NCBI GenBank assembly: GCA_947650365.1
Contig: CANTAL010000027.1
Location: forward strand, 434,001-498,000
Length of the DNA stretch: 64,000 bases
Source of the DNA: Chamaelirium japonicum
Lineage: Eukaryota; Streptophyta; Magnoliopsida; Liliales; Melanthiaceae
Reading direction: 5' to 3'
Shown here piece by piece: positions 1 through 64,000 of this stretch. A program made the translations under genes and the position numbers. Position 1 is the stretch's first letter. Every line of letters begins with the position of its first letter. The notes under the pieces are model-generated. The model ran no database searches, was not told the DNA's origin, and saw only the letters and a program-made list of their open reading frames with translations.

Positions 1-1078
1 TAATTCATTCGCACGATCCATTCTAATTCATTCGCACGATCCATTCTAATTCATTCATACGTTCCATTCTAATTCATACGTATGATTCATTCTAATTCAT
101 TTGCACGATCCATTCTAATTCATTCATATGATCCATTCTAATTCATTTATAAGATCCATTCTAATTCATTCGCATGAATGTATCCATTATAATTCATTCG
201 TACAATCCATTCTAATTCATTCGCACAATCTATTCTAATTCATTCGTACGATCCATTCTAATTCATTAGCACGATCCAGCATAATTAATCGTACGATCCA
301 TTCTATTTCATTGGTACGATCCATTCTTACTCATTGGTACGGTCCATTCTAATTCATTCACAGGAATGTATCCATTCTAATTCATTCGTACGTTCCATTC
401 TAATTCATTTGCATGATCCATTCTAATTCATTCATACGATCCATTCTAATTCATTCGTACGATCCATACTAATTAATTCCTACGATCTATTCTTACTCAT
501 TCGTACGATCCATTCTAATTCATTCGCACGAATGTATCCATTCTAATTCATTCGTACGATCCATTCTAATTCATTTGCACGATCCATACTAATTCATTCA
601 TAAGATCCATTCTAATTCATTCGCACGATCCATTCTAATTCATTCATACAATCCATTCTAATTCTTTCGCACGAATGTATCCATTCTAATTCATTCGTGC
701 GATTCACCCTAATTCCTTCGTATGATCTATTCTAAATCATTCGCACGAATGTATCTATTCTAATTCATTCGTACGATCCATTCGAATTCATTCATACGAT
801 CCATTCTAATTCATTCATATGATCCATTCTAATTCATTCGCACGAATGTATCCATTCTAATTCATTCGTACGATCCATTCTAAATCATTCGCACAATCGA
901 TTCTAATTCATTCGTACAATCCATTCTTATTCATTCGCATGATCCATTCTAATTCATTTGTACGATCCATTCTAATTCATTCATATAATCTATTCTAATT
1001 CTTTTGCACGAATGTATCCATTCTAATTCATTCGTACGATCCATTCTAATTCCTTCGTACGATCCATTCTAATTCATT

Positions 1079-2588
1079 CCCATGAATGTATCCATTCTAA
1101 TTCATACGTACGATCCATTTTAATTCAATCATACGATCCAATCTAATTCATTCATACGATCTATTCCAATTCATTCGCACGAATGCATCCATTCTAATTC
1201 ATCGTACGATCCATTCTAATTCATTCACACAATCTATTCTAATTCATTCGTACGATCCATTCTAATTTATTAGCACGATCCATTCTAATTCATTCGTACG
1301 ATCCATTCTATTTCATTCGTATGATCCATTCTTACGATCCATTCTATTTCATTCGTACGATCCATTCTTACTTATTCGTACGATCCTTCTAATTCATTCG
1401 CACGAATGTATCCATTCTAATTCGTTCATACGTTCCATTCTAATTCATTCGCACGATCCATTCTAATTCACTCGTACGATCCATTCTAATTCATTCGTAC
1501 GAACCATTCTAATTCATTCGCATGATCCATTCTAATTCATTCATACGATCCATTCTAATTCATTCGCACGAATGTATCCATTCTAATTCATTTGTACGAT
1601 CCATTCTAATACATTCACACAATCTATTCTAATTCATTCGTACGATCCATTCTATTTCATTCGTACGATCCATTCTTACTCATTCGTACGATCCATTCTA
1701 ATTCATTCGCACGAATGTATCCATTCTAATTCATTCATACGATCCATTCTAATTCATTTGCACGATCCATTCTAATTCATTCATACGATCCTTTCTAATT
1801 CATTCGTACGATCCATTCTAATTCATTCACACAATCTATTCTAATTCATTCGTACGATCCATTCTAATTCATTAGCACGATCCATTCTAATTCATTTGTA
1901 CGGTCCATTCTATTTCATTCGTACGATCCATTCTTACTCATTTGTACGATCCATTCTAATTCATTCGCACGAATGTATGTATTCTAATTCATTCGAATGA
2001 TCCATTCTAATTCATTCGCACGATCCATTCCAATTCATTCGCACGATCCATTCTAATTCATTCGCACGATCCATTCTAATTCATTCATGCGATCCATTCT
2101 AATTCATTCATACAATCCATTCCAATTCTTTCGCACGACTGTATCCATTCTAATTCATTTGTGCGCTCCACCCTAATTCCTTCGTATGATCCATTCTAAT
2201 TCATTCACACGAATATATCCATTCTAATTCATTCGTACGATCCATTCGAATTCATTCATACGATCTATTCTAATTCATTCATATGATACATTCTAATTCA
2301 TTCGCACGAATGTATCTATTCTAATTCATTCGTATGATCCATTCTAATTCATTCGCACAATCTATTCTAATTCATTCGTACGATCTATTCTAATTCATTT
2401 GCACGATCCATTCTAATTCATTCATACAATCCATTCTAATTCTTTTGCACTAATGTATCCATTCTAATTCCTTCGTACGATCTATTCTAATTCCTTCGTA
2501 CGATCCATTCTAATTCCTTCGTACGATCCATTCTATTTCATTCGTATGATCCATTCTAATTCCTTCGTACGATCCATTCTAATTTATT
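1079..2588 (+). repeat. About 1.5-kb unit, A1 first
   Basis: The unit is 1,510 bp, measured from the CCCATGAATG 28-mer to the next one. It opens with the CATACGTACG, CATACG-ATCCAATC, CATACG monomer trio that begins every such unit. It ends in a run of TAATTCCTTC first boxes. The matching units are 19026-20536 and 47810-49343. Confidence 0.88.
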
Positions 2589-4097
2589 CCCATGAATGTA
2601 TCCATTCTAATTCATACGTACGATCCATTCTAATTCATTCATACGATCCAATCTAATTCATTCATACGATCCATTCTAATTCATTCGCACGAATGTATCC
2701 ATTCTAATTCATTCGTACGATCTATTCTAATTCATTCGCACAATCTATTCTAATTCATTCGTACGATCCATTCTAATTCATTAGCACGGTCCATTCTAAT
2801 TCATTCGTAAGATCCATTCTATTTCATTCGTACGATCCATTCTTACTCATTCGTACGATCCATTCTAATTCATTCGCATGAATGTACCCATTCTAATTCA
2901 TTCGTACGATCCATTCTAATTCATTCGCACGATCTATTCTAATTCATTCGTACGATCCATTCTAATTCATTCGTATGATCCATTCTAATTCATTCGTATG
3001 ATCCATTCTAATTCATTCGCATGATCCATTCTAATTTATTCATACGATCCATTCTAATTCATTCATACAATCCATTCTAATTCTTTCGCTCGAATGTATC
3101 CATTCTAATTCATTCGTATGATCCACCCTAATTCCTTCATATGATCCATTCTAATTCATTCGCACGAATGTATCCATTCTAATTCATTCGTACGATCCAT
3201 TCGAATTCATTCATACGATCCATTCTAATTTATTCATACGATCCATTCTAAATCATTCGTACGAATGTATCCATTCTAATTTATTCGTACGAATGTATCC
3301 ATTCTAATTCATTCGTACGATCCATTCTAATTCATTCGCACGATTAAATCTAATTCATTCGCACGATCCATTCTAATTCATTCGTACGATCCATTCTATT
3401 TCATTCTTACGATCTATTCTTACTCATTCGTATGATCCATTCTAATTCATTCGCACGAATGTATCCATTCTAATTCATTCGTACGATCCATTCTAATTCA
3501 TTCGCACGATCTATTCTAATTCATTCATACGATCCATTCTAATTCATTCGTACGATCCATTCTAATTCATTCGCACGATCCATTCTAATTCATTCATACG
3601 ATCCATTCTAATTCATTCATACAATCCATTCTAATTCTTTCGCACGAATTTATCCATTCTAATTCATTCGTACGATCCACCCTAATTCCTTCGTATGATC
3701 CATTCTAATTCATTCGCATGAATGTATCCATTCTAATTCATTCGTAAGATCCATTCGAATTCTTTCATACGATCCATTCTAATTCATTCATACGATCCAT
3801 TCTAATTCATTCACACGAATGTATCCATTCTAATTCATTCGTACGATCTATTGTAATTCATTCGCACAATCTATTCTAATTCATTCATACGATCCATTCT
3901 AATTCATTCGCACGATCCATTCTAATTCATTTGTACGATCCATTCTAATTCATTCATACAATCCATTCTAATTCTTTTGTACGAATGTATCCATTCTAAT
4001 TCATTCGTACGATCCATTCTAATTCCTTGATACGATCCATTCTAATTCCTTCGTATGATCCATTCTAATTCCTTCGTTCGACCCATTCTAATTCATT
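2589..4097 (+). repeat. About 1.5-kb unit, A1 second
   Basis: The unit is 1,509 bp. Its modules, each closed by a 28-mer, run in order: opening trio; AGCACG/TATTTC/TTACTC module; CATACAATCC module; ATCCACCC/CCTTC module; ATCCATTCGAATTC module. Much of this series then runs a second time before the closing CCTTC run. It holds the perfect palindrome at 3254-3267. The matching units are 20537-22022 and 49344-50852. Confidence 0.88.
3254..3267. repeat. Perfect 14-bp palindrome in a 28-bp monomer
   Basis: CATTCGTACGAATG is its own reverse complement. It arises where a 28-mer carries GTACG instead of the usual GCACG. The same site is at 15617-15630, 21202-21215, 44149-44162 and 50009-50022. Ordinary 28-mers carry the near-perfect form CATTCG-CA-CGAATG, with 6-bp arms and a 2-bp centre. 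Confidence 0.9.
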
Positions 4098-4233
4098 CTC
4101 ATGAATGTATCCATTCTAATTCATACATACAATCTATTCTAATTCATTCATACGATCCAATCTAATTCATTCATACGATCCATTCTAATTCATTCGCACG
4201 AATGTATCCATTCAAATTCATTATAATTCCTTC

Positions 4234-4259
4234 AAACGATCCATTCGTACGATCCATTC
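4234..4259 (+). repeat. Tandem 13-bp boxes without the 10-bp box
   Basis: A second-box variant (AAACGATCCATTC) is followed directly by GTACGATCCATTC, with no TAATTCATTC box between. The same arrangement recurs near 16340, 17705, 22165, 45135 and 46495. It shows that the 13-bp half can be repeated alone. Confidence 0.85.
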
Positions 4260-4900
4260 TAATTCCATCGCACGAATGTATCCATTCGAATTCATTCGTA
4301 CGATTCATTCTAATTCATTCGCACAATCTATTCTAATTCATTAGTACGATCCATTCTAATTCATTCGCACAATCTATTCTATTTCATTCGTACGATCCAT
4401 TCTTACTCATTCGTACGATCCATTCTAATTCATTCGCACGAATGTATCCATTCTAATTCATTCGTACGATCCATTGTAATTCATCCGCACGATCCATTCT
4501 AATTAATTCATACGATCTAATCTAATTCATTCATACGATCCATTCTAATTCATTCGCATGATCCATTCTAATTCATTCATATGATCCATTCTAATTCATT
4601 CATACAATCCATTCTAATTCATTCGCACGAATGTATCCATTATAATTCATTCGTACAATCCATTCTAATTCATTCACATAGTCTATTCTAATTCATTCGT
4701 ACGATCCAATCTAATTCATTAGCATGATCCATTCTAATTCATTCGTATGATTCATTCTATTTCATTGGTACGATCCATTCTTACTCATTCGTACGATCCA
4801 TTCTAATTCATTCGCACGAATGTATCCATTCTAATTCATTCGTACGATCCATTCTAATTAATTTGCACGATCCATTCTAATTCATTCATACGATCCATTT

Positions 4901-5181
4901 TAATTCATTCGTAAGATCCATTCTAATTCATTCGCACAATCCATTCTAATTCATTCACACGATCCATTCTAATTCATTTGCACGATCCATTCTAATTCAT
5001 TTATACAATCTATTCGAATTCATTCATACGATCTATTCTAATTCATTCATATGATACGTTCTAATTCATTCGCACGAATGTATCTATTCTAATTCATTCG
5101 TATGATCCATTCTAATTCATTCGCACAATCTATTCTAATTCATTCGTACGATCTATTCTAATTCATTTGCACGATCCATTC
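4901..5181 (+). repeat. Chimeric 281-bp insertion patch in A1
   Basis: These twelve monomers (11 x 23 + 28) are absent from A3 and A5 at the equivalent site (near 22828 and 51650). Bases 4855-5015 read identically to C1 from 30162 over 161 bp, including a rare TAATTAATTT first box and a TTATACAATC monomer. Bases 5016-5181 match 2248-2413 in the same block with one difference in 166 bp, including the rare CATATGATAC monomer. Recombination or gene conversion between blocks is inferred. Confidence 0.85.
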
Positions 5182-7262
5182 TAATTCATTCGTACAATCC
5201 ATTCTAATTCATTCGCACAATCTACTCTAATTCATTCATACGATCCATTCTAATTCATTAGTACGATCCATTCTAATTCATTCATACGATCCATTCTATT
5301 TCATTCGTACGATCCATTCTTACTCATTCGTATGATCTATTCTAGTTTATTCGCACGAATGTATCCGTTCTAATTCATTCGTACGATCCATTCTAATTCA
5401 TTCGCACGATCCATTCTAATTCATTCATACGATCCATTCTAATTCATTCATACGATCCATTCTAATTCATTCGCACGATCCATTCTAATTCATTCATACG
5501 ATCCATTCTAATTTATTCAGACAATCCTTTCTAATTCTTTCGCACGAATGTATCTATTCTAATTCATTCGTACGATCCACCCTAATTCCTTCGTATGATC
5601 CATTCTAATTCATTCGCACGAATGTATCCATTCTAATTCATTCGTACAATCCATTCGAATTAATTCAGGCGATCCATTCTAATTCATTCATACGATCCAT
5701 TCTAATTCATTCGCAAGAATGTATCCATTCTAATTCATTCGTATGATCCATTCTAATTCATTCGCACAATCTATTCTAATTCATTCGAACGATCTTTTCT
5801 AATTCATTCGCACGATCCATTCTAATTCATTTGCACTATCCATTCTAATTCATTCATACAATCCATTCTAATTCTTTTGCACGAATGTATCCATTCTAAT
5901 TTCTTCGTACGATCCATTCTAATTCCTTTGTACGATCCATTCTAATTCCTTCGTACGATCCATTCTATTTCATTCGTATGATCCATTCTAATTCGTTCGT
6001 ACGATCGATTCTAATTCATTCCCATGAATTTATCCATTCTAATTTATGCGTACGATCCATTCTATTTCATTCATATGATCCAATCTAATTCATTCATACG
6101 ATCCATTCTAATTCATTCGCACGAATGTATCCATTCTAATTCATTCGTACGATCCATTCTAATTCATTCGCACAATCTATACCAATTCATTCGTACGATC
6201 TATTCTAATTCATTAGCACGATCCATTCTATTTCATTCATACGATCCATTCTATTTCATTCGTACGATCCATTCTTACTCGTTCGTATGATCCATTCTAA
6301 TTCATTCACACGAATGTATCCATTCTAATTCATTCTTACGATCCATTCTAATTCTTTCGCACGATCCATTCTAATTCATTCATACGATCCATTCTAATTC
6401 ATTCATACGATCCATTCTAATTCATTCGCACAATCTATTCTAATTCATTCGTACGATCCATTCTAATTCATTAGCATGATCCATTCTAATTCATTCGTAC
6501 AATCCATTCTATTTCATTCGTACGATCCATTCTTACTCATTCGTACGATCCATTTTACTTCATTCGCACGAATGTATCCATTCTAATTCATTCGTACGAT
6601 CCATTCTAATTCATTCGCATGATCCATTCTAATTCATTCATACGATCTATTCTAATTCATTCGTACGATCCATTCTAATTCATTCGCACGATCCATTCTA
6701 ATTCATTCATACGATCCATTCTAATTCATTCGTACGATCCATTCTAATTCATTCGCACGAATGTATCCATTCTAATTCATTCGTACAATCTATTCTAATT
6801 CATTCGCACTCCATTCTTACTCATTCGTACGATCCATTCTACTTCATTCGCACGAATGTATCCATTCTAATTCATTCGTACGATCCATTCTAATTCATTC
6901 GCACGATCCATTCTAATTCATTCATACGATCCATTCTAATTCATTCGTACGATCCATTCTAATTCATTCGCACGAATGTATCCATTCTAATTCATTCGTA
7001 CAATCTATTCTAATTCATTCGCACAATCTATTCTAATTCATTCGTACGATCCATTCTAATTCATTAGTACGATCCATTCTAATTCATTCGTATGATTCAT
7101 TCCATTTCATTGGTACGATCTATTCTTACTCATTCGTACGATCCATTCTAATTCATTTGTACGATCCATTCTAATTTATTCGCACGATCCATTCTAATTT
7201 ATTTATACGATCCATTCTAATTCATTCGTACGATCCATTCTAATTCATTCGCACGATCCATT

Positions 7263-7502: not shown

Positions 7503-10500
7503 CTATTTCATTCGTACGATTCATTCTTACTCATTCGTACGATCCATTCTAATTCATTCGCACGAATGTATCCATTCTAATTCATTCGTACGTTCAATTC
7601 TAATTCATTCGCACGATCCATTCTAATTCATTCGTACGATCCATTCTAATTCATTCATACGATCCATTCTAATTCATTCATACGATCCATTCTAATTCAT
7701 TCGCACGAATGTATCCATTCTAATTTATTCGTATGATCCATTCTAATACATTCGCACAATCTATTCTAATTCATTCGTACGATCCATTCTAATTCTTTAA
7801 CACGATCCATTCTAATTCATTCGTACGATCCATCCTATTTCATTCGTACGATCCATTCTTACTCATTCGTACGATCTATTCCAATTCATTCACACGAATG
7901 TATCCATTCTAATTCATTCGTACGATCCATTCTAATTAATTTGCACGATCCATTCTAATTCATTCATACAATCCATTTTAATTCATTCGTAAGATCCATT
8001 CTAATTCATTCACACAATCTATTCTAAATCATTCGAACGATCCATTCTAATTCATTAGCACGATCCATTCTAATTCATTCGTACGATCCATTCTATTTCA
8101 TTCATACGATCCATTCTTACTTATTCGTATGATCCATTCTAATTCATTCGCACGAATGTATCCATTCTAATTCATTCGTACTATCCATTCTAATTCATTC
8201 ATACAATCCATTCTAATTCATTCATACAATCCATTCCAATTCTTTTGCACGAATGTATGCATTCTAATTCATTCGTACGATCCACCCTAATTCCTTCGTA
8301 TGATCCATTCTAATACATTCACACGAACGTATCCATTCTAATTCATTCGTAGGATCCATTCGAATTCATTCATACGATCTATTCTAATTCATTCATACGA
8401 TCCATTCTAATTCTTTCGCACGAATGTATCCATTCTAATTCATTCGCATGATCCATTCTAATTCATTCGCATAATCTATTCTAATTCATTCGTACGATCC
8501 ATTCTAATTCATTCGCACGATCCATTCTAATTCATTTGCACTATCTATTCTAATTCATTCATACAATTCATTCTCATTCTTTTGCACGAATGTATCCATT
8601 TTAATTCCTTCGTACGATCCATTCTAATTCCTTCATACGATCCATTCTATTTCATTCGTATGATCCATTCTTATTCCTTCGTACGATCCATTCTAATTCA
8701 TTCCCATGAATTTATCCATTCTAATTCATACGTACGATCTATTCTAATTCATTCATATGATCCAATCTAATTCATTCATACGATCCATTCTAATTCATTC
8801 GCACGAATGTATCCATTCTAATTCATTCGTACGATCCATTCTAATTCATTCGCACTATCTTTGCTAATTCATTCGTACGATCCATTCAAATTTATTAGCA
8901 CGATCCATTCTAATTCATTCGTACGATCTATTCTATTTCATTCGTACGATCCATTCTTACTCATTCATACGATCCATTCTAATTCATTCGCATGAATGTA
9001 TCCATTCTAATTCATTCGTACGATCCATTCTAATTCATTCGCACAATCTATTCTAATTAATTCGTACGATCCATTCTAATTCGTTAGCACGATCCATTCT
9101 AATTCATTCGTACGATCCATTCTATTTCATTCGTACGATCCATTCTTACTCATTCGTAAGATCCATTCTAATTCATTCGCACGAATGTATCCATTCTAAT
9201 TCATTCGTATGATCCATTCTAATTCATTTGCACGATCTATTCTAATTCATTCATACGATCCATTCTAATTCATTTGTACGATCCATTCTAATTCATTCGC
9301 ACGATCCATTATAATTCATTCATATGATCCATTCTAATTCATTCATACAATTCATTTTAATTCTTTCGCACAAATATTTCCATTCTAATTCATTCGTACG
9401 ATCCACCCTAATTCCTTCGTATGATCCATTCTAATTCATTCGAACGAATGTATCCATTCTAATTCATTCATACGATCCATTCAAATTCATTCATACAATC
9501 CATTCTAATTCATTCATACGATCCATTCTAATTCATTCGCACGAATGTATCCAGTCTAATTCATTCGTACGATCCATTCTAATTCATTCGCACAATCTAT
9601 TCTAATTAATTCGTATGAACCATTCTAATTCATTCGCATGATCCATTCTAATTCATTTGCACGATCCATTCTAATTCATTCATACAATCCATTCTAATTC
9701 TTTTGCACAAATGTATCCATTCTAATTCATTCGTACGATCCATTATAATTCCTTCGTATGATCCAGTATAATTCTATCGTACGATCCATTCTAATTCCTT
9801 CGTACGATCCATTCTATTTCATTCGTATGATCCATTCTAATTCCTTCGTACGATTCATTCTAATTCATTCCTATGAATGTATGCATTCCAATTCATATAT
9901 ACGATCCATTCTAATTCATTGATACGATCCAATCTAATTCATTCATAAGATCCATTCTAATTCATTCGCACGAATGTATCCATTCTAATTTATTCGTACG
10001 ATCCATTCTAATTCATTCGCACAATCTATTCTAATTCATTCGCACGATCCATTCTAATTCATTCATATGATCCATTCTAATTCATTCGTACGATCCATTC
10101 TAATTCATTCGCACGATCCATTCTAATTCATTCATACGATCCATTCTAATTAATTCATACGATCCATTCTAATTCATTCACACGAATGTATCCATTCTAA
10201 TTCATTCGTACGATCCATTCTAATTCATTCGCACAATCTATTCTAATTCATTCGTACGATCCATTCTAGTTCATTAGCACGATCCATTCTAATTCATTCG
10301 TACGATCCATTCTATTTCAACCGTACGAACCAACTTTACTCATTCGTACGATCCATTCTAATTCATTCGCACGAATGTATCTATTCTAATTCATTCGTAC
10401 GATCCATTCTAATTCATTCGCACGATCCATTCTAATTCATTCATACGATCCATTCTAATTCATTCGTATGATCCATTCTAATTCATTCGCACAATCTATT

Positions 10501-10888
10501 CTAATTTATTCGTACGATCCATTCTAGTTCATTAGCACGATCCATTCTAATTCATTCGTACGATCCATTCTATTTCATTCGCACGATCCATTCTTACTCA
10601 TTCGTACGATCCATTCTAATTCATTCACGCGAATGTATCCATTCTAATTCATTCGTACGATCCATTCTAATTCATTCGCACGATCTATTCTAATTATTTC
10701 ATACGATCCATTCTAATTCATTCGTACGATCCATTCTAATTCATTCGCACGATCCATTCTAATTCATTCATACGATCCATTCTAATTCATTCATACAATC
10801 CATTCTAATTCTATCGCACGAATATACCCATTCTAATTCATTCGTACGATCCACCCTAATTCCTTCGTATGATCCATTCTAATTCATT

Positions 10889-11654
10889 CGCACGAATGTA
10901 TCCATTCTAATTCATTCGTACGATCCATTCGAATTCATTCATACGATCTATTCTAATTCATTCATACGATCCATTCTAATTCATTCGCACGAATGTATCC
11001 ATTCTAATTCATTCGTACGATCCATTCTAATTTATTCGCACAATCGATTCTTATTCATTCGTATGATCCATTCTAATTCATTCGCACAATCCATTCTAAT
11101 TCATTTGTACGATCCATTCTAATTCATTCATACAATCCGTTCTAATTCTTTTATACGAATGTATCCATTCTAATTCATTCGTACGATCCTTTCTAATTCC
11201 TTCGTAAAATCCTTTCTAAATCTTTCGTACGATCCATTCTAATTTCTTCGTACGATCCATTCTAATTCATTCCCATGAATGTATCCATTCTAATTCATAC
11301 GTACGATCCATTCTAATTGATTCATACGATCCAATCTAATTCATTCATACGATCTATTCTAATTCATTCGCACGAATGTATCCATTCTAATTCATTCGTA
11401 CGATCCATTCTAATTCATTCGCACTATCTATTCTAATTCATTCGTACTATCCATTCTAATTCATTTGCACGATCCATTCTAATTCATTTGCACGGTCCAT
11501 TCTAATTCATTCATACAATCCATTCTAATTCTTTTATACGAATGTATCTATTCTAATTCATTCGTACGATCCATTCTTATTCCTTCTTACAATCCATTCT
11601 AATTCTTTTGTACGATCCATTCTAATTTCTTCGTACGATCTATTCTAATTCATT
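10889..11654 (+). repeat. 383-bp tandem doublet in B1
   Basis: Two CCCATG 28-mers at 11272 and 11655 are only 383 bp apart (13 x 23 + 3 x 28), against about 1.5 kb elsewhere. The sequence before each shares the CATACAATCC, TTTTATACGAATG and TTCTTCG monomer series, so a 16-monomer unit has been doubled. B3 keeps the doublet (39840 and 40225, spacing 385 because of a 2-bp gain near 39987). B2 and B4 have lost 120 bp (4 x 23 + 28) of it near 28650 and 54815. Confidence 0.8.
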
Positions 11655-13444
11655 CCCATGAATGTATCCATTCTAATTCATACGTACGATCCATTCTAAT
11701 TCATTCATACGATCCAATCTAATTCATTCATACAATCCATTCTAATTCATTCGCACGAATGTATCCATTCTAATTCATTCGTACAATCCATTCTAATTCA
11801 TTCGCACAATCTATTCTAATTCATTCGTACGATCCATTCTAATTCATTAGCACGATCCATTCTAATTCATTCGTACGATCCATTCTATTTCATTGGTACG
11901 ATCTATTCTTACTCATTCGTGCGATCCATATTAATTCATTCGCACGAATGTATTAATTCTAATTCATTCGTACGATCCATTCTAATTCATTCGCACGATC
12001 CATTCTAATTCATTTATACGATCCATTCTAATTCATTCGTACGATCCATTCTAATTCATTCGCACGATCCATTCTAATTCATTCATACGATCCATTTTAA
12101 TTCATTCACACAATCCATTCTAATTCTTTCGCACGAATGTATCCATTCTAATTCATTCGTACGATCCATTCTAATTCATTCGTACGATATATTCTAATTC
12201 ATTCGCACGAATGTATGCATTCTAATTCATTCGTACGATCCATTCTAATTCTTCCGCACAATCTATTCTAATTCATTCGTACGATCCATTCTAATTCATT
12301 AGCACGATCCATTCTAATTCATTCGTACGATCCATTCTATTTCATTCGTACGATCCATTCTTACTCATTCGTACGATACATTCTAATTCATTCGCATGAA
12401 TGTATCCATTCTAATTCATTCGTACGTTCCATTCTAATTCATTCACACGATCCATTCTAATTCATTCATACGATCCATTCTAATTCATTCGAACGATCCA
12501 TTCTAATTCATTCGCACGATCCATTCTAATTCATTCATACGATCCATTCTAATTCATTCGCACGAATGTATCCATTCTAATTCATTTGTATGATCCATTC
12601 TAATACATTCGCACAATCTATTCTAATTCATTCGTACGATCCATTCTAATTCATTAGCACGATCCATTCTAATTCATTCGTACGATCCATTCTAATTCAT
12701 TCGTACGATCCATTCTAATTCATTCGCAGGAATGTATCGATTCTAATTCATTCGTATGTTCCATTCTAATTCATTTGCACGATCCATTCTAATTCATTCA
12801 TACGATCCATTCCAATTCATTCGTACGATCCATTCTAATTAATTCCTACGATCTATTCTTACTCATTCGTACGATCCATTCTAATTCATTCGCACGAATG
12901 TATCCATTCTAATTCATTCGTACGATCCATTCTAATTCATTTGCATGATCCATTCTAATTCATTCATACGATCCATTCTAATTCATTCGCACGATCCATT
13001 TTAATTCATTCATACAATCCATTCTAATTCTGTCGCACGAATGTATCCATTCTAATTCATTCGTGCGATCCACCCTAATTCCTTCGTATGATCTATTCTA
13101 AATCATTCGCACGAATGTATCTATTCTAATTCATTCGTACGATCCATTTGAATTCATTCATACGATCAATTCTAATTCATTCATACGATCCATTCTAATT
13201 CATTCGCACGAATGTATCCATTCTAATTCATTCGTACGATCCATTCTAATTCATTCGCACAATCGATTCTAATTCATTCATACGATCCATTCTTATTCAT
13301 TCGCACGATCCATTCTAATTCATTTGTATGATCCATTCTAATTCATTCATATAATCTATTCTAATTCTTTTGCACGAATGTATCCATTCTAATTCATTCG
13401 TACGATCCATTCTAATTCCTTCGTACGATCCATTCTAATTCATT

Positions 13445-32195: not shown

Positions 32196-32199
32196 TATG

Positions 32200-36000: not shown

Positions 36001-36079
36001 TCTATTTCATTCGTACGATCCATTCTTACTCATTCGTATGATCCATTCTAATTCATTCGCACGAAGGTATCCATTCTAA

Positions 36080-36115
36080 TTCATTCGTACGATCCATTCT
36101 AATTCATTCGTACGA
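36080..36115 (+). repeat. Tandem-duplication junction
   Basis: Left of here the sequence follows C2 to about 62290, including the GAAGGTATCC 28-mer. Right of here it follows B1 from about 7624: GTACG, CATACG, CATACG, 28-mer, then the TAATTTATTC monomer at 36197, equal to 7721. This end-to-start joint is what a head-to-tail duplication leaves. The exact base is hidden by the shared monomer. Confidence 0.8.
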
Positions 36116-50852: not shown

Positions 50853-52481
50853 CTCATGAATGTATCCCTTCTAATTCATACATACAATCCATTCTAATTC
50901 ATTCATACGATCAAATCTAATTCATTCATACGATCCATTCTAATTCATTCGCACGAATGTATCCATTCTAATTCATTAAAATTCATTCGTACGATCCATT
51001 CTAATTCCATCGCACGAATGTATCCATTCGAATTCATTCGTACGATTCATTCTAATTCATTCGCACAATCTATTCTAATTCATTCGTACGATCCATTCTA
51101 ATTCATTCACACAATCTATTCTATTTCATTCGTACGATCCATTCTTACTCATTCGTACAATCCATTCTAATTCATTCGCACGAATGTATCCATTCTAATT
51201 CATTCGTACGATCCATTGTAATTCATTCGCACGATCCATTCTAATTCATTCATACGATCTAATCTAATTCATTCGTACGAACATTTCTAATTCATTCGCA
51301 TGATCCATTCTAATTCATTCATATGATCCATTCTAATTCATTCATACAATCCATTCTAATTCATTCGCACGAATGTATCTATTATAATTCATTCGTACAA
51401 TCCATTCTAATTCATTCACACAATCTATTCTAATTCATTCGTACGATCCATTCTAAATCATTAGCATGATCCATTCTAATTCATTCGTATGATTCATTCT
51501 ATTTCATTGGTACGATCCATTCGTACTCATTCGTACAATCCATTCTAATTCATTCGCACGAATGTATCCATTCTAATTCATTCGCACGATCCATTCTAAT
51601 TCATTTGCACGATCCATTCTAATTCATTCATACGATCCATTCTAATTCATTCGTACAATCCATTCTAATTCATTCGCACAATCTACTCTAATTCATTCGT
51701 ACGATCCATTCTAATTCATTAGTACGATCCATTCTAATTCATTCGTACGATCCATTCTATTTTATTCGTACGATCGATTCTTACTCATTCGTATGATCTA
51801 ATCTAGTTTATTCGCACGAATGTATCCATTCTAATTCATTCGTACGATCCATTCTAATTCATTCGCACGATACATTCTAATTCATTCATACGATCCATTC
51901 TAATTCATTCATACGATCCATTCTAATTCATTCGCACGATCCATTCTAATTCATTCATACGATCCATTCTAATTTATTCAGACAATCCTTTCTAATTCTT
52001 TCGCACGAATGTATCCATTCTAATTCATTCGTACGATCCACCCTAATTCCTTCGTATGATCGATTCTAATTCATTCGCACGAATGTATCCATTCTAATTC
52101 ACTCATACAATCCATTCGAATTAATTCAGACGATCCATTTTAATTCATCCATACGATCCATTCTAATTCATTCGCAAGAATGTATCCATTCTAATTCATT
52201 CGTATGATCCATTCTAATTCATTCGCACAATCTATTCTAATTCATTCGAACGATCCATTCTAATTCATTCGCACGATCCATTCTAATTCATTTGCACGAT
52301 ACATTCTAATTCATTCATACAATCCATTCTAATTCTTTTGCACGAATGTATCCATTCTAATTTCTTCGTACGATCCATTCTAATTCCTTTGTACGATCCA
52401 TTCTAATTCCTTCGTACGATCCATTCTATTTCATTCGTATGATCCATTCTAATTCATTCGTACGATCCATTCTAATTCATT
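50853..52481 (+). repeat. About 1.6-kb unit, A5 third
   Basis: The unit is 1,629 bp and starts at a CTCATGAATG 28-mer. It lacks the A1 patch but keeps the extra CATACG monomer near 51910 that A3 lacks. Confidence 0.86.
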
Positions 52482-55400
52482 CCCATGAATTTATCCATTC
52501 TAATTTATACGTACGATCCATTCTATTTCATTCATATGATCCAATCTAATTCATTCATACGATCCATTCTAATTCATTTGCACGAATGTATCCATTCTAA
52601 TTCATTCGTACGATCCATTCTAATTCATTCGCACAATCTATTCCAATTCATTCGTACGATCTATTCTAATTCATTAGCACGATCCATTCTAATTCATTCA
52701 TACGATCCATTCTATTTCATTCGTACGATCCATTCTTACTCGTTCGTATGATCCATTCTAATTCATTCACACGAATGTATCCATTCTAATTTATTCTTAC
52801 GATCCATTCTAATTCTTTCGCATGATCCATTCTAATTCATTCATACGATCCATTCTAATTCATTCGTACGATCCATTCTAATTCATTCGCACAATCTATT
52901 CTAATTCATTCATACGATCCATTCTAATTCATTAGCACGATCCATTCTAATTCATTCGTATAATCCATTATATTTCATTCGTACGATCCATTCTTACTCA
53001 TTCGTACGATCCATTTTACTTCATTCGCACGAATGTATCCATTCTAATTCATTCGTACGATCCATTCTAATTCATTCGCATGATCCATTCTAATTCATTC
53101 ATACGATCTATTCTAATTCATTCGTACGATCCATTCTAATTCATTCGCACGATCCATTCTAATTCATTCAAACGATCCATTCTAATTCATTCGAACGAAT
53201 GTATCCATTCTAATTCATTCGTACAATCTATTCTAATTCATTCTCACTCCATTCTTACTCATTCGTACAATCCATTCTACTTCATTCGCACGAATGTATC
53301 CATTCTAATTCATTCGTACGATCCATTCTAATTCATTCGCACGATCCATTCTAATTCATTCATACGATCCATTCTAATTCATTCGTACGATCCATTCTAA
53401 TTCATTCGCACGAATGTATCCATTCCAATTCATTCGTACAATCTATTCTAATTCATTCGCACAATCTATTCTAATTCATTCGTACGATCCATTCTAATTC
53501 ATTAGCACGATCCATTCTAATTCATTCGTACGATCCATTCTATTTCATTGGTACGATCCATTCTTACTCATTCGTACGATCCATTCTAATTCATTCGTAC
53601 GATCCATTCTAATTTATTCGCACGATCCATTCTAATTTATTTATAGGATCCATTCTAATTCATTCGTACGATCCATTCTAATTCATTCGCACGATCCATT
53701 CTAATTCATTCGTACGATTCATTCTTACTCATTCGTACGATCCATTCTAATTCATTCGCACGAATGTATCCATTCTAATTCATTCGTACGTTCCATTCTA
53801 ATTCATTCGCACGATCCATTCTAATTCATTCATACGATCCATTCTAATTCATTCATACGATCCATTCTAATTCATTCGTACGATCCATTCTAATTCATTC
53901 GTACGATCCATTCTAGTTCATTAGCACGATCCATTCTAATTCATTCGTACGATCCATTCTATTTCATCCGTACGAACCAACTTTACTCATTCGTACGATC
54001 CATTCTAATTCATTCGCACGAATGTATCTATTCTAATTCATTCGTACGATCCATTCTAATTCATTCGCACGATCCATTCTAATTCATTCATACGATCCAT
54101 TCTAATTCATTCGTATGATCCATTCTAATTCATTCGCACAATCTATTCTAATTTATTCGTACGATCCATTCTAGTTCATTAGCACGATCTATTCTAATTC
54201 ATTCGTACGATCCATTCTATTTCATTCGTACGATCCATTCTTACTCATTCGTACGATCCATTCTAATTCATTCGCACGAATGTATCCATTCTAATTCATT
54301 CGTACGATCCATTCTAATTCATTCGCACGATCTATTCTAATTCATTCATACGATCCATTCTAATTCATTCGTACGATCCATTCTAATTCATTCGCATGAT
54401 CCATTCTAATTCATTCATACGATCCATTCTAATTCATTCATACAATCCATTCTAATTCTTTCGCACGAATATACCCATTCTAATTCATTCGTACGATCCA
54501 CCCTAATTCCTTCGTATGATCCATTCTAATTCATTCGCACGAATGTATCCATTCTAATTCATTTGTACGAACCATTCGAATTCATTCATACGATCTATTC
54601 TAATTCATTCATACGATCCATTCTAATTCATTCGCACGAATGTATCCATTCTAATTCATTCGTACGATCAATTCTAATTTATTCGCACAATCGATTCTAA
54701 TTCATTCGTATGATCCATTCTAATTCATTCGCACAATCCATTCTAATTCATTTGTATGATCCATTCTAATTCATTCATACAATACGTTCTAATTCTTTTA
54801 TACGAATGTATCCATTCTAATTCATACGTACGATCCATTCTAATTGATTCATACGATCCAATCTAATTCATTCATACGATCTATTCTATTTCATTCGCAC
54901 GAATGTATCCTTTCTAATTCATTCGTACGATCCATTCTAATTTATTCGCACAATCTATTCTAATTCATTCGTACGATCCATTCTAATTCATTTGCACGAT
55001 CCATTTTAATTCATTTGCACGGTCCATTCTAATTCATTCATACAATCCATTCTAATTCTTTTATACGAATCTATCTATTCTAATTCATTCGTACGATCCA
55101 TTCTAATTCCTTCGTACAATCCATTCTAATTCTTTCGTACGATCCATTCTAATTTCTTCGTACGATCCATTCTAATTCATTCCCATGAATGTATCCATTC
55201 TAATTCATACGTACGATCCATTCTAATTCATTCATACGATCCAATCTAATTCATTCATACAATCCATTCTAATTCATTCGCACGAATGTATCCATTCTAA
55301 TTCATTCGTACAATCCATTCTAATTCATTCGCACAATCTACTCTAATTCATTCGTACGATCCATTCTAATTCATTAGCACGATCCATTCTAATTCATTCG

Positions 55401-56214
55401 TACGATCCATTCTATTTTATTGGTACGATCTATTCTTACTCATTCGTACGATCCATTCTAATTCATTCGCACGAATGTATTAATTCTAATTCATTCATAC
55501 GATCCATTCTAATTCATTCGCACGATCCATTCTAATTCATTTATACGATCCATTCTAATTCATTCATACGATCCATTCTAATTTATTCGCACGATCCATT
55601 CTAATTCATTCATACGATCCATTTTAATTCATTCACACAATCCATTCTAATTCTTTCGCACGAATGTATCTATTCTAATTCATTCGTACGATCCATTCTA
55701 ATTCATTCATACGATATATTCTAATTCATTCGCACGAATGTATGCATTCTAATTCATTCGTACGATCCATTCTAATTCATCCGCACAATCTATTCTAATT
55801 CATTCGTACGATCCATTCTAATCATTAGCACGATCCATTCTAATTCATTCGTACGATCCATTCTATTTCATTCGTACGATCCATTCTTACTCATTCGTAC
55901 GATCCATTTTAATTCATTCGCACGAATGTATCCATTCTAATTCATTCGTACGTTCCATTCTAATTCATTCACACGATCCATTCTAATTCATTCATACGAT
56001 CCATTCTAATTCATTCGAACGATCCATTCTAATTCATTCGCACGATCCATTCTAATTCATTCATACGATCCAATCTAATTCATTCGCACGAATGTATCCA
56101 TTCTAATTCATTTGTATGATCCATTCTAATACATTCGCACAATCTATTCTAATTCATTCGTACGATCCATTCTAATTCATTAGCACGATCCATTCTAGTT
56201 CATTCGTACGATCC
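52482..56214 (+). repeat. Higher-order block B4 (internally deleted)
   Basis: B4 matches B2 up to about 53870, then jumps to the equivalent of about 27.73 kb. It has a private one-base loss in an AGCACG monomer near 55818. It keeps a 28-mer near 55660 where B2 has a 23-mer. It continues into C2 as B2 does into C1. Confidence 0.86.
53865..53900 (+). repeat. Junction of the 2,689-bp deletion in B4
   Basis: CATACG monomers matching B2 near 25.02 kb are followed by two GTACG monomers and then the TAGTTCATTAGCACG monomer of B2 near 27.75 kb. The joint is in monomer register and no foreign bases are inserted. Confidence 0.84.
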
Positions 56215-58129
56215 ATTCTATTTCATTCGTACGATCCATTCTTACTCATTCGTACGATCCATTCTAATTCATTCGCACGAATGTAACCATTCTAATTCAT
56301 TCATACGATCCATTCTAATTAATTTGCACGATCCATTCTAATTCATTCATACGATCCATTTTAATTCATTTGTAAGATCCATTCTAATTCATTCGCACAA
56401 TCCATTCTAATTCATTCACACGATCCATTCTAATTCATTTGCACGATCCATTCTAATTCATTTATACAATCTATTCTAATTCTTTTGCACGAATGTATAC
56501 ATTCTAATTCATTCATACGGTCCATTCTAATTCCTTTGTACGATCCATTCTAATTCCTTCGTACGATCCATTCTAATTCCTTCGTATGATCCATTCTATT
56601 TCATTCATATGATCCATTCTAATTCCTTCGTACGATCCATTCTAATTCATTCCCATGAATGTATCCATTCTAATTCATACGTATGATCCATTCTAACTCA
56701 TTCATACGATCCAATCTAATTCATTCATACGATCCATTCTAATTCATTCGCACGAATGTATCCATTCTAATTCATTTGTACGATCCATTCTAATTCATTC
56801 GCACAATCTATTCTAATTCATTTGTACGATCTATTCTAATTCATTAGCACGGTCCATTCTAATTCATTCGTACGATCCATTCTATTTCATTCGTACGATC
56901 CATTCTTACTCATTCGTATGATCCATTCTATTTCATTCGTACGATCCATTCTTACTCAATCGTACGATCCATTCTAATTCATTCGCACGAATGTATCCAT
57001 TCTAATTCATTCGTACGATCCATTCTAATTCATTCGCATAATCCATTCTAATTCATTCATACGATCTATTCTAATTCATTCGTAGGATCCATTCTAATTC
57101 ATTCGCACGATCCATTCTAATTCATTCATACAATCCATTCTAATTCAATCATACAATCCATTCTATTTCGTTCGCACGAATGTATCCATTCTAATTCATT
57201 CGTACGATCCACCCTAATTCTTTCATATGATCCTTTCTAATTCGTTTGCACGACTGTATCCATTCTAACTCATTCGTAGGATCCATTCGAATTCATTCAT
57301 ACGATCCATTCTAATTCATTCATACGATCCATTCTAATTCATTCATACGATCCATTCTATTTCATTCGTACGATCCATTCTTACTCATTCGTACGATCCA
57401 TTCTAATTCATTCGCTCTAATTCCTTCGTACGATCCATTCTAATTCTTTCGTACGATCCATTCTAATTCCTTCGTACGATCCATTCTATTTCATTCGTAT
57501 TATCCATTCTAATTCCGTCGTACGATCCATTCTAATTCATTCCCATGAACGTATCCATTCTAATTCATATGTATGATCCATTCTAATTCATTCATACGAT
57601 CCAATCTAATTTATTCATACAATCCATTCTAATTCATTCGCACGAATGTATCCATTCTAATTCATTCATACGATCCATTCTAATTCATTCGCACAATCTA
57701 TTCTTATTCATTCGTACGATCCATTCTAATTCATTAGCACGATCCATTCTAATTAATTTGTATGATCCATTCTATTTCATTCGTACGATCCATTCTTACT
57801 CATTCGTATGATCCATTCTAATTCATTCGCACGAATGTATCCATTCTAATTCATTCGCATGATCCATTCTAATTCATTCATACGATCCATTATAATTCAT
57901 TCGTAAGATCAATTCTAATTCATTCGCACGATCCATTCTAATTCATTTGTATGATCCATTCTAATTCATTCATACAATCCATTCTAATTCTTTCGCACGA
58001 ATGTATCCATTCTAAATCATTCGTACGATCCACCCTAATTCCTTCATATGATCCATTCTAATTTATTCATACGATCCATATTAATTCATTAGCACGATCC
58101 ATTCTAATTTATTTGTACGATCCATTCTA

Positions 58130-58365
58130 TTTCATTCGTACGATCCATTCTAATTCATTAGCACGATCCATTCTAATTCATTCGTATGATCCATTCTATT
58201 TCATTCGTACGATCCATTCTAATTCATTAGCACGATCCATTCTAATTCATTAGCACGATCCATTCTAATTCATTCGTACGATCCATTCTATTTCATTCGT
58301 ACGATCCAATCTAATTCATTAGCACGATCCATTCTAATTCATTCGTACGATCCACCCTAATTCCT
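58130..58365 (+). repeat. Local AGCACG/GTACG monomer expansion in C2
   Basis: Five AGCACG monomers alternate with GTACG or GTATG monomers, some with TATTTCATTC first boxes, just left of the inverted segment. C1 has fewer here. It reads as a fresh small-scale amplification of a 46-69-bp unit. Confidence 0.8.
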
Positions 58366-58393
58366 TCGTATGATCCATTCTAATTTATTCGTA

Positions 58394-59215
58394 CAAAGGA
58401 ATTAGAATGGATTAGAATGGATCATATGAATTAGAATGGATTGTATGAATGAGTAAGAATGGATCATGCGAATGAATTAGAATGGATCATGCTAATGAAT
58501 TCGAATGGATCGTACGAATGAATTAGAATGGATCGTATGAATGAATTAGAATAGATCGTGCGAATGAATTAGAATGGATCATACGAATGAATTAGAATGG
58601 ATACATTCGTGCGAATGAATTAGAATGGATCGCACGAATGAGTAAGAATGGATCGTACGAATGAATGGATTGTACGAATGAATTAGAATGGATACATTCG
58701 TGCGAATGAATTAGAATGGATCGTACAAATGAGTTAGAATGGATCGTACGAATGAAATAGAATAGATCGTACGAATGAATTAGAATGGATCGTGCTAATG
58801 AATTAGAATGGATCGTAAAAATGAATTAGAATAGATTGTGCGATTGAATTAGAATGGATCGTACGAATGAATTAGAATGGATACATTCGTGCGAATGAAT
58901 TAGAATGGATCGTATGAATGAATTAGATTGGATCGTATGAATGAATTAGAATGAATCTTACCTATGAATTAGAATGGACACATTCATAGGAAGGAATTAG
59001 AATGGATCGTACGAAGGAATTAGAATGGATCATACGAATGAATTAGAATAGATACATTCGTGCAAAAGAATTAGAATGGATTGTATGAATGAATTAGAAT
59101 GGATCGTGCAAATGAATTATAATGGATCGTACGAAGGATTTAGAATGGATCGTACGAAGGAATTAGAATGGATCGTATGAAGGAATTAGAATGGATCATA
59201 CGAATGAATTAGAAT
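58394..59215 (-). repeat. Inverted satellite segment in C2
   Basis: This is the copy of 32221-33042 at a constant offset of 26,173. I count about ten base differences in 822 bp and no indel; most are C/T or G/A changes at CG, TG or CA. It is flanked by forward array on both sides and was carried along by the super-unit duplication. Confidence 0.93.
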
Positions 59216-62200
59216 CAATCCATTCTAATTTATATGTACGATCCATTCTAATTCATTCTAATATCCATTCTAATTCATTTGCACAATCTATTCTAATTCA
59301 TTCATACGATCCATTCTAATTCATTCGCACGAATGTATCCATTCTAATTGATTCGTACGATCCATTCTAATTCATTCGTACGATCCATTCTAATTCATTC
59401 GCACGATCCATTTTAAATCATTCATACGATCCATTCTAATTAATTCATACAATCCATTCTAATTCTTTCGCACGAATGTATCCATTCTAATTCATTCGTA
59501 CGATCCACCCTAATTCCTTCATATGATCCATTCTAATTCATTCGCACGAATGTATCCATTCTAATTCATTCATACGATCCATTCGAATTCATTCATACGA
59601 TCCATTCTAATTCATTCAAACGATCCATTCTAATTCATTTACACGAATGTATCCATTCTAATTCATTCGTACGATCCATTCTAATTCTTTCACCCAATCT
59701 ATTCTAATTCATTCGTACGATCCATTCTAATTCATTCGCACGATCCATTCTAATTCATTTGCAGGATCCATTCTAATTCATTCATACAATCCATTCTAAT
59801 TCTTTTGCACGAATGTATCCTTTCTAATTCAGTCGTACGATCCATTCTAATTCCATCCAACGATCCATTCTAATTCCTTCAACTGATCTATTCTATTTCA
59901 TTCGTATGATCCATCCTAATTCCTTCGTACGATACAATCTAAGTCATTCCCATTAATGTATCCATTCTTATTCATACGTACGATCCATTCTAATTCATTC
60001 ATACGATCCAATCTAATTCATTCATACGATCCATTCTAATTCATTCACACGAATGTATACATTCTAATTCATTCGTATGATCCATTCTAATTCATTCACA
60101 CTATCTATTCTAATTCATTCGTACGATCCATTCTAATTCATTTGTACGATCCATTCTCATTCATTCATTCGATCCATTCTAATTCATTCGTACGATCCAT
60201 TCTTACTCATTCGTACGATCCATTCTAATTCATTCGCACGAATGTATCCATTCTAATTCATTCGTACGATCCATTCTAATTTATTCGCACGATCCATTCT
60301 AATTCAATCGTACGATCCATTCTAATTCATTCGTACGATCCATTATAATTCATTCGCACGATCCATTCTAATTCATTCATACGATCCATTCTAATTCATT
60401 CATACAATCCATTCTAATTCTTTTGCATGAATGTATCCATTCTAATTCATTCGTACGATCCATTCTAATTCATTCGCACAATCTATTCTAATTCATTTGT
60501 ACGATCCATTCTAATTCATTAGCACGATCTATTCTAATTCTTTTGTACGATCTATTCTATTTCATTCATACGATCCATTCTTACTCATTCGTACGATCCA
60601 TTCTAATTCATTCGCACAAATGTATCCATTCTAATTCATTCGTACGATCCATTCTAATTCATTCGCACGATCCATTCTAATTCATTCGTACGATCCATTC
60701 TAATTCATTCGCACGATCCATTCTAATTCATTCATACGATCCATTCTAATTCATTCATACAATCCATTCTAATTCATTCGTATGATCCATTCTAATTCAT
60801 TCGCACGATCCATTCTAATTCATTCATATGATCCATTCTAATTCATTCGTACGATCCATTTTAATTCATTCGCACAATCTATTCTAATTCATTCGTACGA
60901 TCCATTCTAATTCATTAGCACGATCCATTCTAATTCATTCGTATGATCCATTCTATTTCATTCGTACGATCCATTCTTACTCATTCGTACGATACATTCT
61001 AATTCATTCACACGAATGTATCCATTCTAAATCAATCGTATGATCCATTCTAATTCATTCGCATGATCCATTCTAATTCATTCATACGATCCATTCTAAT
61101 TCATTCGTACGATCCATTCTAATTCATTCGTACAATCTATTCTAATTCATTCGTACGATCCATTCTAATTCATTATCACGATCCATTCTAATTCATTCGT
61201 ACGATCCATTCTTTTTCATTCGTACAATCCATTCTTACTCATTCGTACGATCCATTCTAATTTATTCGCATGAATTTATCCATTTTAATTCATTCGTACA
61301 ATCTATTCTAATTCATTCGAACGATCCATTCTAATTCATTCATACGATCCTTTCTAATTCATTCGTACGATCCATTCAAATTCATTCGCACGATCCATTC
61401 TAATTCATTCATACGATCCAATCTAATTTATTCATATAATCCATTCTAATTCTTTCGCACGAATGTATCCATTCTAATTCATTCGTACGATCCACCCTAA
61501 TTCCTTCATATGATCCATTCTAATTCATTCGCACGAATGTATCCATTCTAATTCATGCATACGATCCATTCGAATTCATTCATACGATCCATTCTATTTT
61601 ATTCGTAAGATCCATTCTAATTCATTCGCACGAATGTATCCATTCTAATTCATTCGTACGATCCATTCTAATTCATTCGCATGATCCAATCTAGTTTATT
61701 CGCATGATCCATTCTAATTCATTCGTACGATCCATTCTATTTCATTCGTACGATCCATTCTTACTCATTCGTACGATCCATTCTAATTCATTCGCACGAA
61801 TGTATCCATTCTAATTCATTCATACGATCCATTCTAATTCATTCGCACGATCCATTCTAATTCATTCATACGATCTGTTCTAATTCATTTGTACGATCCA
61901 TTCTAATTCATTCGTACGATCCATTCTAATTCATTCGTACGATCCATTCTAATTCTTTAGCACGATCCATTCTAATTCATTCATACGATCCATTCTAATT
62001 CATACGATCCATTCTAATTCATTCATACGATCCATTCTATTTCGTTCGTATGATTCATTCTAATTAATTCATACGATCCATTCTATTTCATTCGTACGAT
62101 CCATTCTTACTCATTCGTATGATCCATTCTAATTCATTCGCACGATCCAATCTAATTCATTCGCACAATCCATTGTAATTCTTTCGTACGATCCATTCTA

Positions 62201-62965: not shown

Positions 62966-62990
62966 TGCAATAGAATTAGAATGGATTGCA
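62966..62990 (-). repeat. Single-monomer micro-inversion
   Basis: TGCAAT (62966-62971) and ATTGCA (62985-62990) are inverted arms around AGAATTAGAATGG, the reverse complement of the usual CCATTCTAATTC with one more base. Flipping the interval restores the common series of a CATACAATCC-type monomer followed by a TTTTGCACGAATG 28-mer. Confidence 0.88.
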
Positions 62991-63380
62991 CGAATGTATC
63001 CATTCAAATTCATTCGTACGATCCATTCTAATTCCTTCGTACGATCCATTCTAATTCCTTTGTATAATCCATTCTATTTCATTCGTACGATTCATTCTAT
63101 TTCATTTGTATGATCCATTCTAATTCCTTCATTCGATCCATTCTAATTCATTCCCACGAATGCATCCATTCTAATTCATATGTACGATCCATTCTAATTC
63201 ATTCATACGATCCAATCTAATTCATTCATACGATCCATTCTAATTCATTCGCACGAATGTATCCATTCTAATTCATTCGTACGATCCATTCTAATTTATT
63301 CGCACAATCTATTCTAATTCATTCGTACGATCCATTCTAGTTCATTAGCACGATCCATTCTAATTCATTCGTACGATCCA

Positions 63381-63400
63381 TTCTATTTCATTCTTACTCA
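63381..63400 (+). repeat. Two 10-bp boxes joined without a 13-bp box
   Basis: A TATTTCATTC box runs straight into a TTACTCATTC box. Elsewhere these two are always separated by GTACGATCCATTC. A precise loss of one 13-bp box is the simplest reading. Confidence 0.85.
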
Positions 63401-64000
63401 TTCGTACGATCTATTCTAATTCATTCGCACGAATGTATCCATTCTAATTCATTTGTACGATCTATTCTAATTCATTCACACGATCCAATCTAATTCATTC
63501 ATACGATCCAATCTAATTCATTCATACGATCCATTCTAATTCATTCGCACGAATGTATCCATTCTAATTCATACATACGATCCATTCTAATTCATTCGCA
63601 CAATCTATTCTAATTCATTCGTACGATCCATTATAATTCATTAGCATGATCCATTATAATGGATTCGTACAGTCCATTCTTTTTCATTCGTACGATCCAT
63701 TCTTACTCATTCGTACGATCCATTCTAATTCATTCGCACGAATGTATCCATTCTAATTCATTCGTACGATCCATTCTAATTCATTCGCATGATCCATTCT
63801 AATTCATTCATACGATCCATTCTAATTCATTCGTACGATCCATTCTAATTTATTCGCACGATCAATTCTAATTCATTCATACGATCCATTCTAATTCATT
63901 CATACAATCCATTCTAATTCTGTCGCACTAATGTATCCATTCTAATTTATTCGTACGATCCACCATAATTCCTTCGTATGATCCATTCTAATTCATTCGC

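Follow-up and report, generated by a model that had tools for sequence, protein, structure and literature searches.

The satellites Chio1 and Chio2 are described in PMC10264360 (Kuo 2023) as the CENH3-bound satellites of the Chionographis japonica holocentromere. As reported there, their monomers measure 23 and 28 bp, respectively, and differ by a 5-bp deletion and one substitution; the satellite forms cluster CL1, a higher-order Chio cluster (CL73) has already been named, and CENH3 enrichment has been published for the family. The same paper leaves the route of spread undecided among interlocus conversion, inversions and extrachromosomal circles, and the passages of its main text compared here mention neither a mosaic of duplications nor strand-switch junctions in common between loci nor the difference between contigs C39 and C45. 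In the sister genus, Chamaelirium luteum carries Chama, a 60-bp CENH3-bound satellite for which PMC12722358 reports higher-order repeats.

The window analysed here is a stretch of 64,000 bp (C39:434001-498000) within a 2.02-Mb contig, C39, of a 1.52-Gb plant assembly. A satellite array of 23- and 28-bp monomers occupies it from end to end (1..64000), on the forward strand except for two 0.82-kb segments. Parsing yielded 2,697 intervals, of which 2,207 measure 23 bp and 406 measure 28 bp, and TRF reported a 23-bp array spanning the full length, which bears out the monomer tier proposed in the initial annotation. Comparison of the consensus sequences (2,160 23-mers and 395 28-mers) showed that the 28-bp monomer is the 23-bp monomer with one substitution and 5 additional bp, the difference published for Chio1 and Chio2. 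The consensus 23-mer of the window, which ends in ...CATTCGTACGA, contains TTCGTACGA, printed as part of the Chio monomer; TTCGTACGA, taken from a figure legend in PMC10264360, is the stretch of the published monomer with which the letters were compared. The mixed orientation of Chio arrays is likewise found, in the two inverted segments of the window and in the frequent orientation switches at C39:234-309 kb, and the copy number is very high in both cases, one 50-mer of the array having 56,327 + 54,742 occurrences. The CENH3 peptide printed for C. japonica in PMC10264360 matches the assembly at 23/23 residues at a single site, on C12, which identifies the species, on sequence grounds, as C. 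japonica. Judged by these likenesses, the window is identified as the published Chio1/Chio2 centromere satellite of this species. The family, which the initial annotation could not say had been described, is thus already known, and its view of a centromeric-type satellite with higher-order repeats agrees with the Chio1/Chio2 and CL73 family of PMC10264360. Chama shares the 9-bp TTCGTACGA with the monomer of the window but differs in its 60-bp monomer and in its arrays, which according to PMC12722358 stay homogeneous and keep a consistent orientation for hundreds of kb, whereas the window is a mosaic.

The higher-order structure had been interpreted as five nested regular tiers, namely monomers, modules closed by a 28-mer, units of about 1.5 kb, A blocks and a super-unit of about 28.5 kb. 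Regularity holds for the two lowest. The 1.5-kb tier hardly rises over background, and what looked like the upper two tiers consists of tandem duplications that overlap, differ in age and have two to five copies within the window, without forming periods that run through the array. The array very probably grew by local tandem duplication at many scales, with older copies lying inside younger ones. The window very probably represents the interior of a Chio1/Chio2 array of C. japonica, the class of DNA reported to bear CENH3 in the megabase centromere units of this holocentric species. Tracts ranging from about 100 bp up to about 28 kb would have been duplicated repeatedly in tandem, presumably when misaligned copies underwent unequal exchange or replication slipped between them; point mutations and small indels would have accumulated after each duplication, and older duplications would have been carried along within younger ones. 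The resulting pattern would be a by-product of array turnover on a CENH3 platform and carry no functional code. The corrected picture is that of a holocentromere satellite, already published, in which dated duplications form a higher-order mosaic instead of a ladder of repeat sizes.

The module tier was confirmed. In the forward parts of the window, which contain 400 28-mers, no two 28-mers are separated by exactly one 23-mer, against 51.5 such pairs expected, and spacings of 97, 166 and 189 bp are 2 to 4 times as frequent as expected. The avoidance of close pairs and the excess of 74/97- and 166/189-bp spacings are shared by the window and two further parts of C39. In the eight-monomer modules, slot-specific variants persist once the 72 modules have been reduced to 10 (statistic of 1.26, where 200 within-module shuffles reached 0.51 at most), and the C that marks 28-mers reaches 0.97 in slot 2 and 0.51 in slot 4. 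Derivation of the 166/189-bp modules from 74/97-bp modules by loss of one 28-mer found no support in slot composition.

This non-random spacing might be functional, contrary to the by-product reading. If it were under selection, Chio2 units recurring roughly every 155 bp could phase CENH3 nucleosomes or place the palindromic dyad, and both the avoidance of close 28-mers and the enriched spacings in three parts of C39 would fit such a functional module tier. However, the common descent of the modules (72 collapsing to 10) means that duplication of a founder pattern accounts for the bias with no need of selection, and the 28-mer intervals are a broad mix of lengths; selected spacing, with either of these roles, is unlikely.

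Duplications at larger scales were mapped by edit-distance scans of the window; autocorrelation at fixed lags gives a weak signal beyond 3 kb, as indels shift the copies out of phase. The largest is a 28.5-kb tandem duplication on the forward strand, with a first copy at 7600..36075 and a second at 36076..62196 (all edges approximate), the latter being about 2.65 kb shorter near 53.6k. The stretch at about 7.6-24.8k pairs with 36.1-53.6k at 1.17% substitutions, and 27.6-36.0k pairs with 53.75-62.2k at a lag of 26.15-26.2 kb and 1.5% substitutions. Two further forward-strand pairs are an older one (200..4500 with 18147-22425; lag of about 17.95 kb, 2.83% substitutions) and one joining 25760..29900 with 36810-41098 (lag of about 11.1 kb, 1.85% substitutions). 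The large copies cannot have arisen by chance, since the median best non-self identity of 500-bp segments (128 queries each) is 98.5% in the real sequence, far above the 87.0% and 91.2% obtained after shuffling of monomers and modules, respectively. The super-unit of the initial annotation thus exists as two copies but is not array-wide: in the 264 kb of C39:234001-498000, 45 segments match over 3 kb or more at many different lags, with several partial 29-31-kb matches further left, but no third full 28.5-kb unit. The 28.5-kb repeat is a single tandem duplication and is not iterated through the 200 kb upstream.

The A blocks were located by a 59-bp marker with five forward-strand copies in the window, at 721..779, 13087..13145, 18668..18726, 41657..41715 and 47452..47510. 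Their successive spacings are about 12,366, 5,581, 22,989 and 5,795 bp, so that lags of the proposed 5,581-5,825 bp do occur, but as two pairs among five copies and not as a period; the second pair exists because the first was duplicated by the 28.5-kb event. Along C39 the marker is clustered at 422.9-481.5 kb and scattered elsewhere.

The 1.5-kb tier is weak, barely above background. A triplet of such units lies at 1079..5597 on the forward strand, with copies at 19026 and 47810, and the nine proposed unit starts are indeed homologous across the three block copies, at 95-98% identity for units 1 and 2 and 89-96% for unit 3. Within a triplet, however, identities are 83-88% (86.6-88% between units 1 and 2, 83-87% between unit 3 and the others), compared to a median of 82.4% and a maximum of 85.4% at the 1.5-kb lag in one module shuffle. 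The identity between units 1 and 2 lies above this null, though not above that of the closest 1.5-kb matches at any position of the module shuffle (median 86.7%, maximum 89.5%). Over the whole window, median identity is 84.7% at lags of 1450-1560 bp versus 82.8-83.7% at eight other lags. Self-comparison accordingly gives clear off-diagonals near 28.5 and 5.7 kb but a faint one near 1.5 kb.

Identity rises from about 83% for unrelated 500-bp segments and about 87% for 1.5-kb units 1 and 2 to 96-97% for the 5.6- and 17.9-kb copies, 98% for the 11-kb copies, 98.5-99% for the 28.5-kb copies and 99.98% for a 6.1-kb duplication left of the window, where C39:418272-424386 recurs at a lag of 6,140 and a single base of 6,115 is mismatched. 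The trend of age with scale is rough: the most recent duplication is that of 6.1 kb, and the 11-kb copies postdate those at 5.6 kb, indicating that age follows the event and not the size.

The 6.1-kb duplication is present in C39 but not in the near-identical contig C45, where C45:369001-373000 aligns with C39:415412-419412 at 99.0-99.8%; at the corresponding site C45 has one A marker, with the next 5,669 bp on, matching C39 after the second copy. The order of A markers is the same in both contigs and their spacings differ by tens to hundreds of bases. C39 and C45 probably represent homologous chromosomes, although they could instead be paralogous arrays rather than alleles. Contigs collapsed or falsely duplicated in so difficult a repeat, a megabase satellite with a 23-bp unit, could in principle have created the upper tiers, and the single difference between the 6.1-kb copies would suit such an artefact. 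Yet the larger copies in the window are 1.2-3.6% apart, well above what false duplication would be expected to leave, C45 keeps the marker order at slightly different spacings, and PMC10264360 states HiFi reads at 58.5x; an assembly origin is thus very unlikely.

The array does contain higher-order repeats in the sense that copies of multi-monomer units are more alike than neighbouring monomers. Human alpha satellite, with its 171-bp monomer, consists of one higher-order unit iterated very many times, with slot-specific monomer variants and units largely private to an array. The window resembles it in slot-specific variants and largely array-private units, with no sequence relation claimed, but has 23/28-bp monomers and two to five copies of its long units, and it lacks one long unit in many iterations, having two 28.5-kb copies and lags that vary over 264 kb. 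A true hierarchy of five regular periods, with the 28.5-kb super-unit as the higher-order repeat of the array, is a highly improbable reading, for the regular modules, the two copies at 1.2-1.5% substitutions and the partial 29-31-kb matches are outweighed by 264 kb with many other lags and no third full unit, the clustered A marker and the near-background 1.5-kb tier.

Besides local duplication, the preferred reading has some tracts moving from one centromere unit to another. The inverted 0.82-kb segment, bounded by two strand-switch junctions, occurs on the reverse strand at 32222..33042 and 58395..59215, and the inversion predates the 28.5-kb duplication. The pair of junctions recurs on C1, C2, C5, C7 and C10, with flanks mostly 93-98% alike, a divergence about that of the 5.6- and 17.9-kb copies. 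The right junction, found at 36 places, is usable as a junction count; the left marker can sit wholly in reverse array, and its 58 places are not such a count. The stretches from left marker to right junction on C1, C2 and C5 are not single inverted blocks, as sampled points inside them show both orientations. Chio tracts with their strand-switch junctions were probably copied among centromere units on at least these five chromosomes, the long repeats specific to each unit then arising through local tandem duplication. Given the flank divergence, spread between loci and growth within a locus would be of similar age. The fine structure of the array thus holds clues to its growth and its spread between chromosomes: the junctions can be counted and compared across units, separating between-locus spread from growth within one locus, and together with the difference between C39 and C45 they provide markers for how the satellite seeded about a hundred centromere units.

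From 109 raw strand switches, 50 were dropped, almost all for bounding blocks under 60 bp, and 18 of the remaining 59 were removed as repeats, leaving 41, among which relatives may persist. Palindrome arms of at least 7 bp occur at 8 of these 41, compared to about 4% of random joins (binomial 1.6e-4), and the signal is confined to reverse-to-forward switches (6/22; forward-to-reverse 2/19, p 0.16). Arms of 150 bp at the switches are only 72-88% alike. Fold-back at palindromic dyads remains no more than a lead to the source of the strand switches.

The satellite covers the entire window. Its consensus units are a 23-bp monomer, TCCATTCTAATTCATTCGTACGA (from 2,160 23-mers), and a 28-bp monomer, TCCATTCTAATTCATTCGCACGAATGTA (from 395 28-mers), which differs from the former by five additional bases and one substitution; mean identity to the respective consensus is 92% and 94%. 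Both fit the description of Chio1 and Chio2, the CENH3-bound satellites of the holocentric plant Chionographis japonica, in passages of Kuo et al. 2023 (PMC10264360), the comparison being made by description and by TTCGTACGA, which is stated to be part of the Chio monomer in a passage of a 2025 paper (PMC12722358) and is present in the 23-mer consensus of the window. By analogy with the system published in those passages of PMC10264360, the array would belong to a CENH3-binding satellite platform. A typical 50-mer occurs in the genome 56,327 times in forward and 54,742 times in reverse orientation. The fine structure of the duplications was not found described in main-text passages of the literature on Chio and related satellites.

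The assembly holding the window (1,518,659,071 bases, 3,253 contigs) is similar, not identical, to the C. japonica primary assembly given in passages of Kuo et al. 2023 (1,526,137,861 bp, 3,786 contigs; PMC10264360), and the CENH3 peptide published there matches (23/23) at a single place in the genome, on contig C12. Among the 100 matches listed, a full-length COX1 frame with equal best score is present on 59 contigs (e.g. C514, C537), from which the assembly contains many organelle-derived contigs.

The main structure of the window is a single tandem duplication of 28.5 kb, with copies at ~7.6-36.1 kb and ~36.1-62.2 kb, the second of which lacks ~2.65 kb. The copies differ by substitutions at 1.17% of 17,126 aligned bases and at 1.5% of another 8,394; the copy pairs at lags of ~17.95, 5.58 and 11.1 kb differ by 2.83%, 3.63% and 1.85%, respectively. 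The median best non-self identity of 500-bp segments is 98.5%, versus 87.0% in a monomer shuffle and 91.2% in a module shuffle (128 queries each; single shuffle per null).

The initial annotation regarded 28.5 kb as a super-unit of the array. The duplication itself stands, but it has two copies, and no third full unit is present in the window and the 200 kb to its left (264 kb of the 2.02-Mb contig C39, CANTAL010000027.1, which carries the window at 434001-498000). The 45 chained segment pairs in this range (at least 3 kb, at least 93% identity), all in the same orientation, have lags between 3.8 and 82 kb; left of the window, several segments match partially at lags of 29-31 kb, e.g. C39:397.5-402 kb. 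Similarly, lags of 5.6-5.8 kb, proposed as a further tier, exist, but the successive spacings of the five copies of the A block, a locus tagged by a 59-bp marker (~12,366, 5,581, 22,989 and 5,795 bp), reduce this tier to a single pair that was duplicated once as part of the 28.5-kb event. Exact copies of the marker number 27 in the genome: 14 on C39, 11 on C45 and two on C7. Of those on C39, seven fall within 422.9-481.5 kb, and the other seven are dispersed between 701 kb and 1.74 Mb. By exact match, the A block is therefore a local feature, confined for the most part to C39 and C45.

A tier of 1.5-kb units, also claimed initially, is weak. Between block copies the triplets of such units are homologous, with identities of 0.95-0.98 in units 1 and 2 and of 0.89-0.96 in unit 3, and within triplets identity is 0.83-0.88. 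Unit 1 against unit 2 (0.866, 0.88 and 0.87) exceeds the lag null, which has a median of 0.824 and a maximum of 0.854, and unit 3 clearly does so in two of six comparisons, but all within-triplet comparisons stay within the range of the best-anywhere null (maximum 0.895). Somewhat stronger than these triplets is a local 1,448-bp tandem pair at ~25500-27500, with identities of 0.88-0.90 across 1.5 kb and 94-95% across 500 bp.

At the lowest level, the 2,697 parsed intervals of the window comprise 637 distinct sequences, and the placement of the 28-mers is non-random. Among 400 28-mers, five adjacent pairs were observed versus 60.8 expected, pairs separated by a single 23-mer were absent (51.5 expected), and spacings of 97, 166 and 189 bp were 2 to 4 times expectation. 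Motif counts show broadly similar preferences elsewhere on C39, the 51-bp spacing accounting for 4/521 at 326-418 kb and for 4/238 and 3/209 on the two strands at 234-312 kb. Variants are fixed per slot in 8-monomer modules (statistic 1.26 versus a shuffle maximum of 0.51; near-identical modules collapsed from 72 to 10, 200 within-module shuffles). Because modules share descent, their counts are non-independent trials. The 28-mer spacing may have a functional role.

Left of the window, C39:418272-424386 is repeated at a lag of 6,140 bp, and the two copies differ at a single position out of 6,115. Eight 500-bp pieces of C45:369001-373000 are 99.0-99.8% identical to C39:415412-419412. Beyond this stretch, C45 carries its next A marker at 376450 and another 5,669 bp further, a step identical to that on C39 following the second 6.1-kb copy. 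Therefore, C45 has one copy and C39 two. At the window-start loci the contigs are 99.7% identical over 3.5 kb, and they are probably alleles; if so, the 6.1-kb tandem duplication arose, or the second copy was lost, after their divergence.

Two 0.82-kb segments, 32222-33042 and 58395-59215, lie on the opposite strand and are copies of one another at a lag of 26.17 kb; the inversion is therefore older than the 28.5-kb duplication. Their right junction, a reverse-to-forward join, recurs exactly at 36 places (three on C1, one on C2, three on C5, seven on C7, two on C10 and 20 on seven smaller contigs). In all eight inspected of the 34 outside the window the strand switches; the reverse side is 92-97% identical to the window, and the forward side 96-97.5% in five and 85-87% in three, where the continuation is different. 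The left marker, tagging the other edge, is not junction-specific (58 places); of the 56 outside the window eight were inspected, all with a strand switch and 93-98% identity on both sides. It lies less than 900 bp upstream of 14 of the 36 right junctions (C39, C45, C7, C106, C209) and 18-29 kb upstream of eight (C1, C2, C5, C10, C73), and is absent within 40 kb of the other 14. Shared junctions with shared flanks are best explained by common descent, in which case tracts have moved between centromere units. C1-C12 are, from their number and length, probably the twelve chromosomes, and the apparent spread is subject to possible misplacement of satellite contigs in Hi-C scaffolds. Mutation and tandem duplication at many scales are the simplest account of the window architecture, with some inversion and transfer of tracts in addition.

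Pairs of left markers have a spacing of exactly 4,967 bp in three C5 units (3.57, 80.57 and 85.12 Mb) and of 4,759 bp at two places on C10 (61.87 and 62.34 Mb); on C7 (29.23-30.32 Mb) they recur every ~13.3 kb. These spacings hint at unit-specific long repeats and unit-to-unit copying within chromosomes. Unlike the window, C39:234001-309000 has frequent orientation flips, the majority of 109 raw switches; some junctions there form short, perfectly palindromic sequences around TCGTACGA, GGATCC or TATA, and short stretches unlike Chio sequence adjoin two strand switches near 287969 and 293310. An LTR retrotransposon of 13.5 kb is inserted in the Chio array at C39:312601-326100, ~108 kb left of the window. 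Its LTRs (1,461 bp) are 99% alike, and its frames encode gag, reverse transcriptase, RNase H and integrase in this order, which is that of Ty3/gypsy elements.
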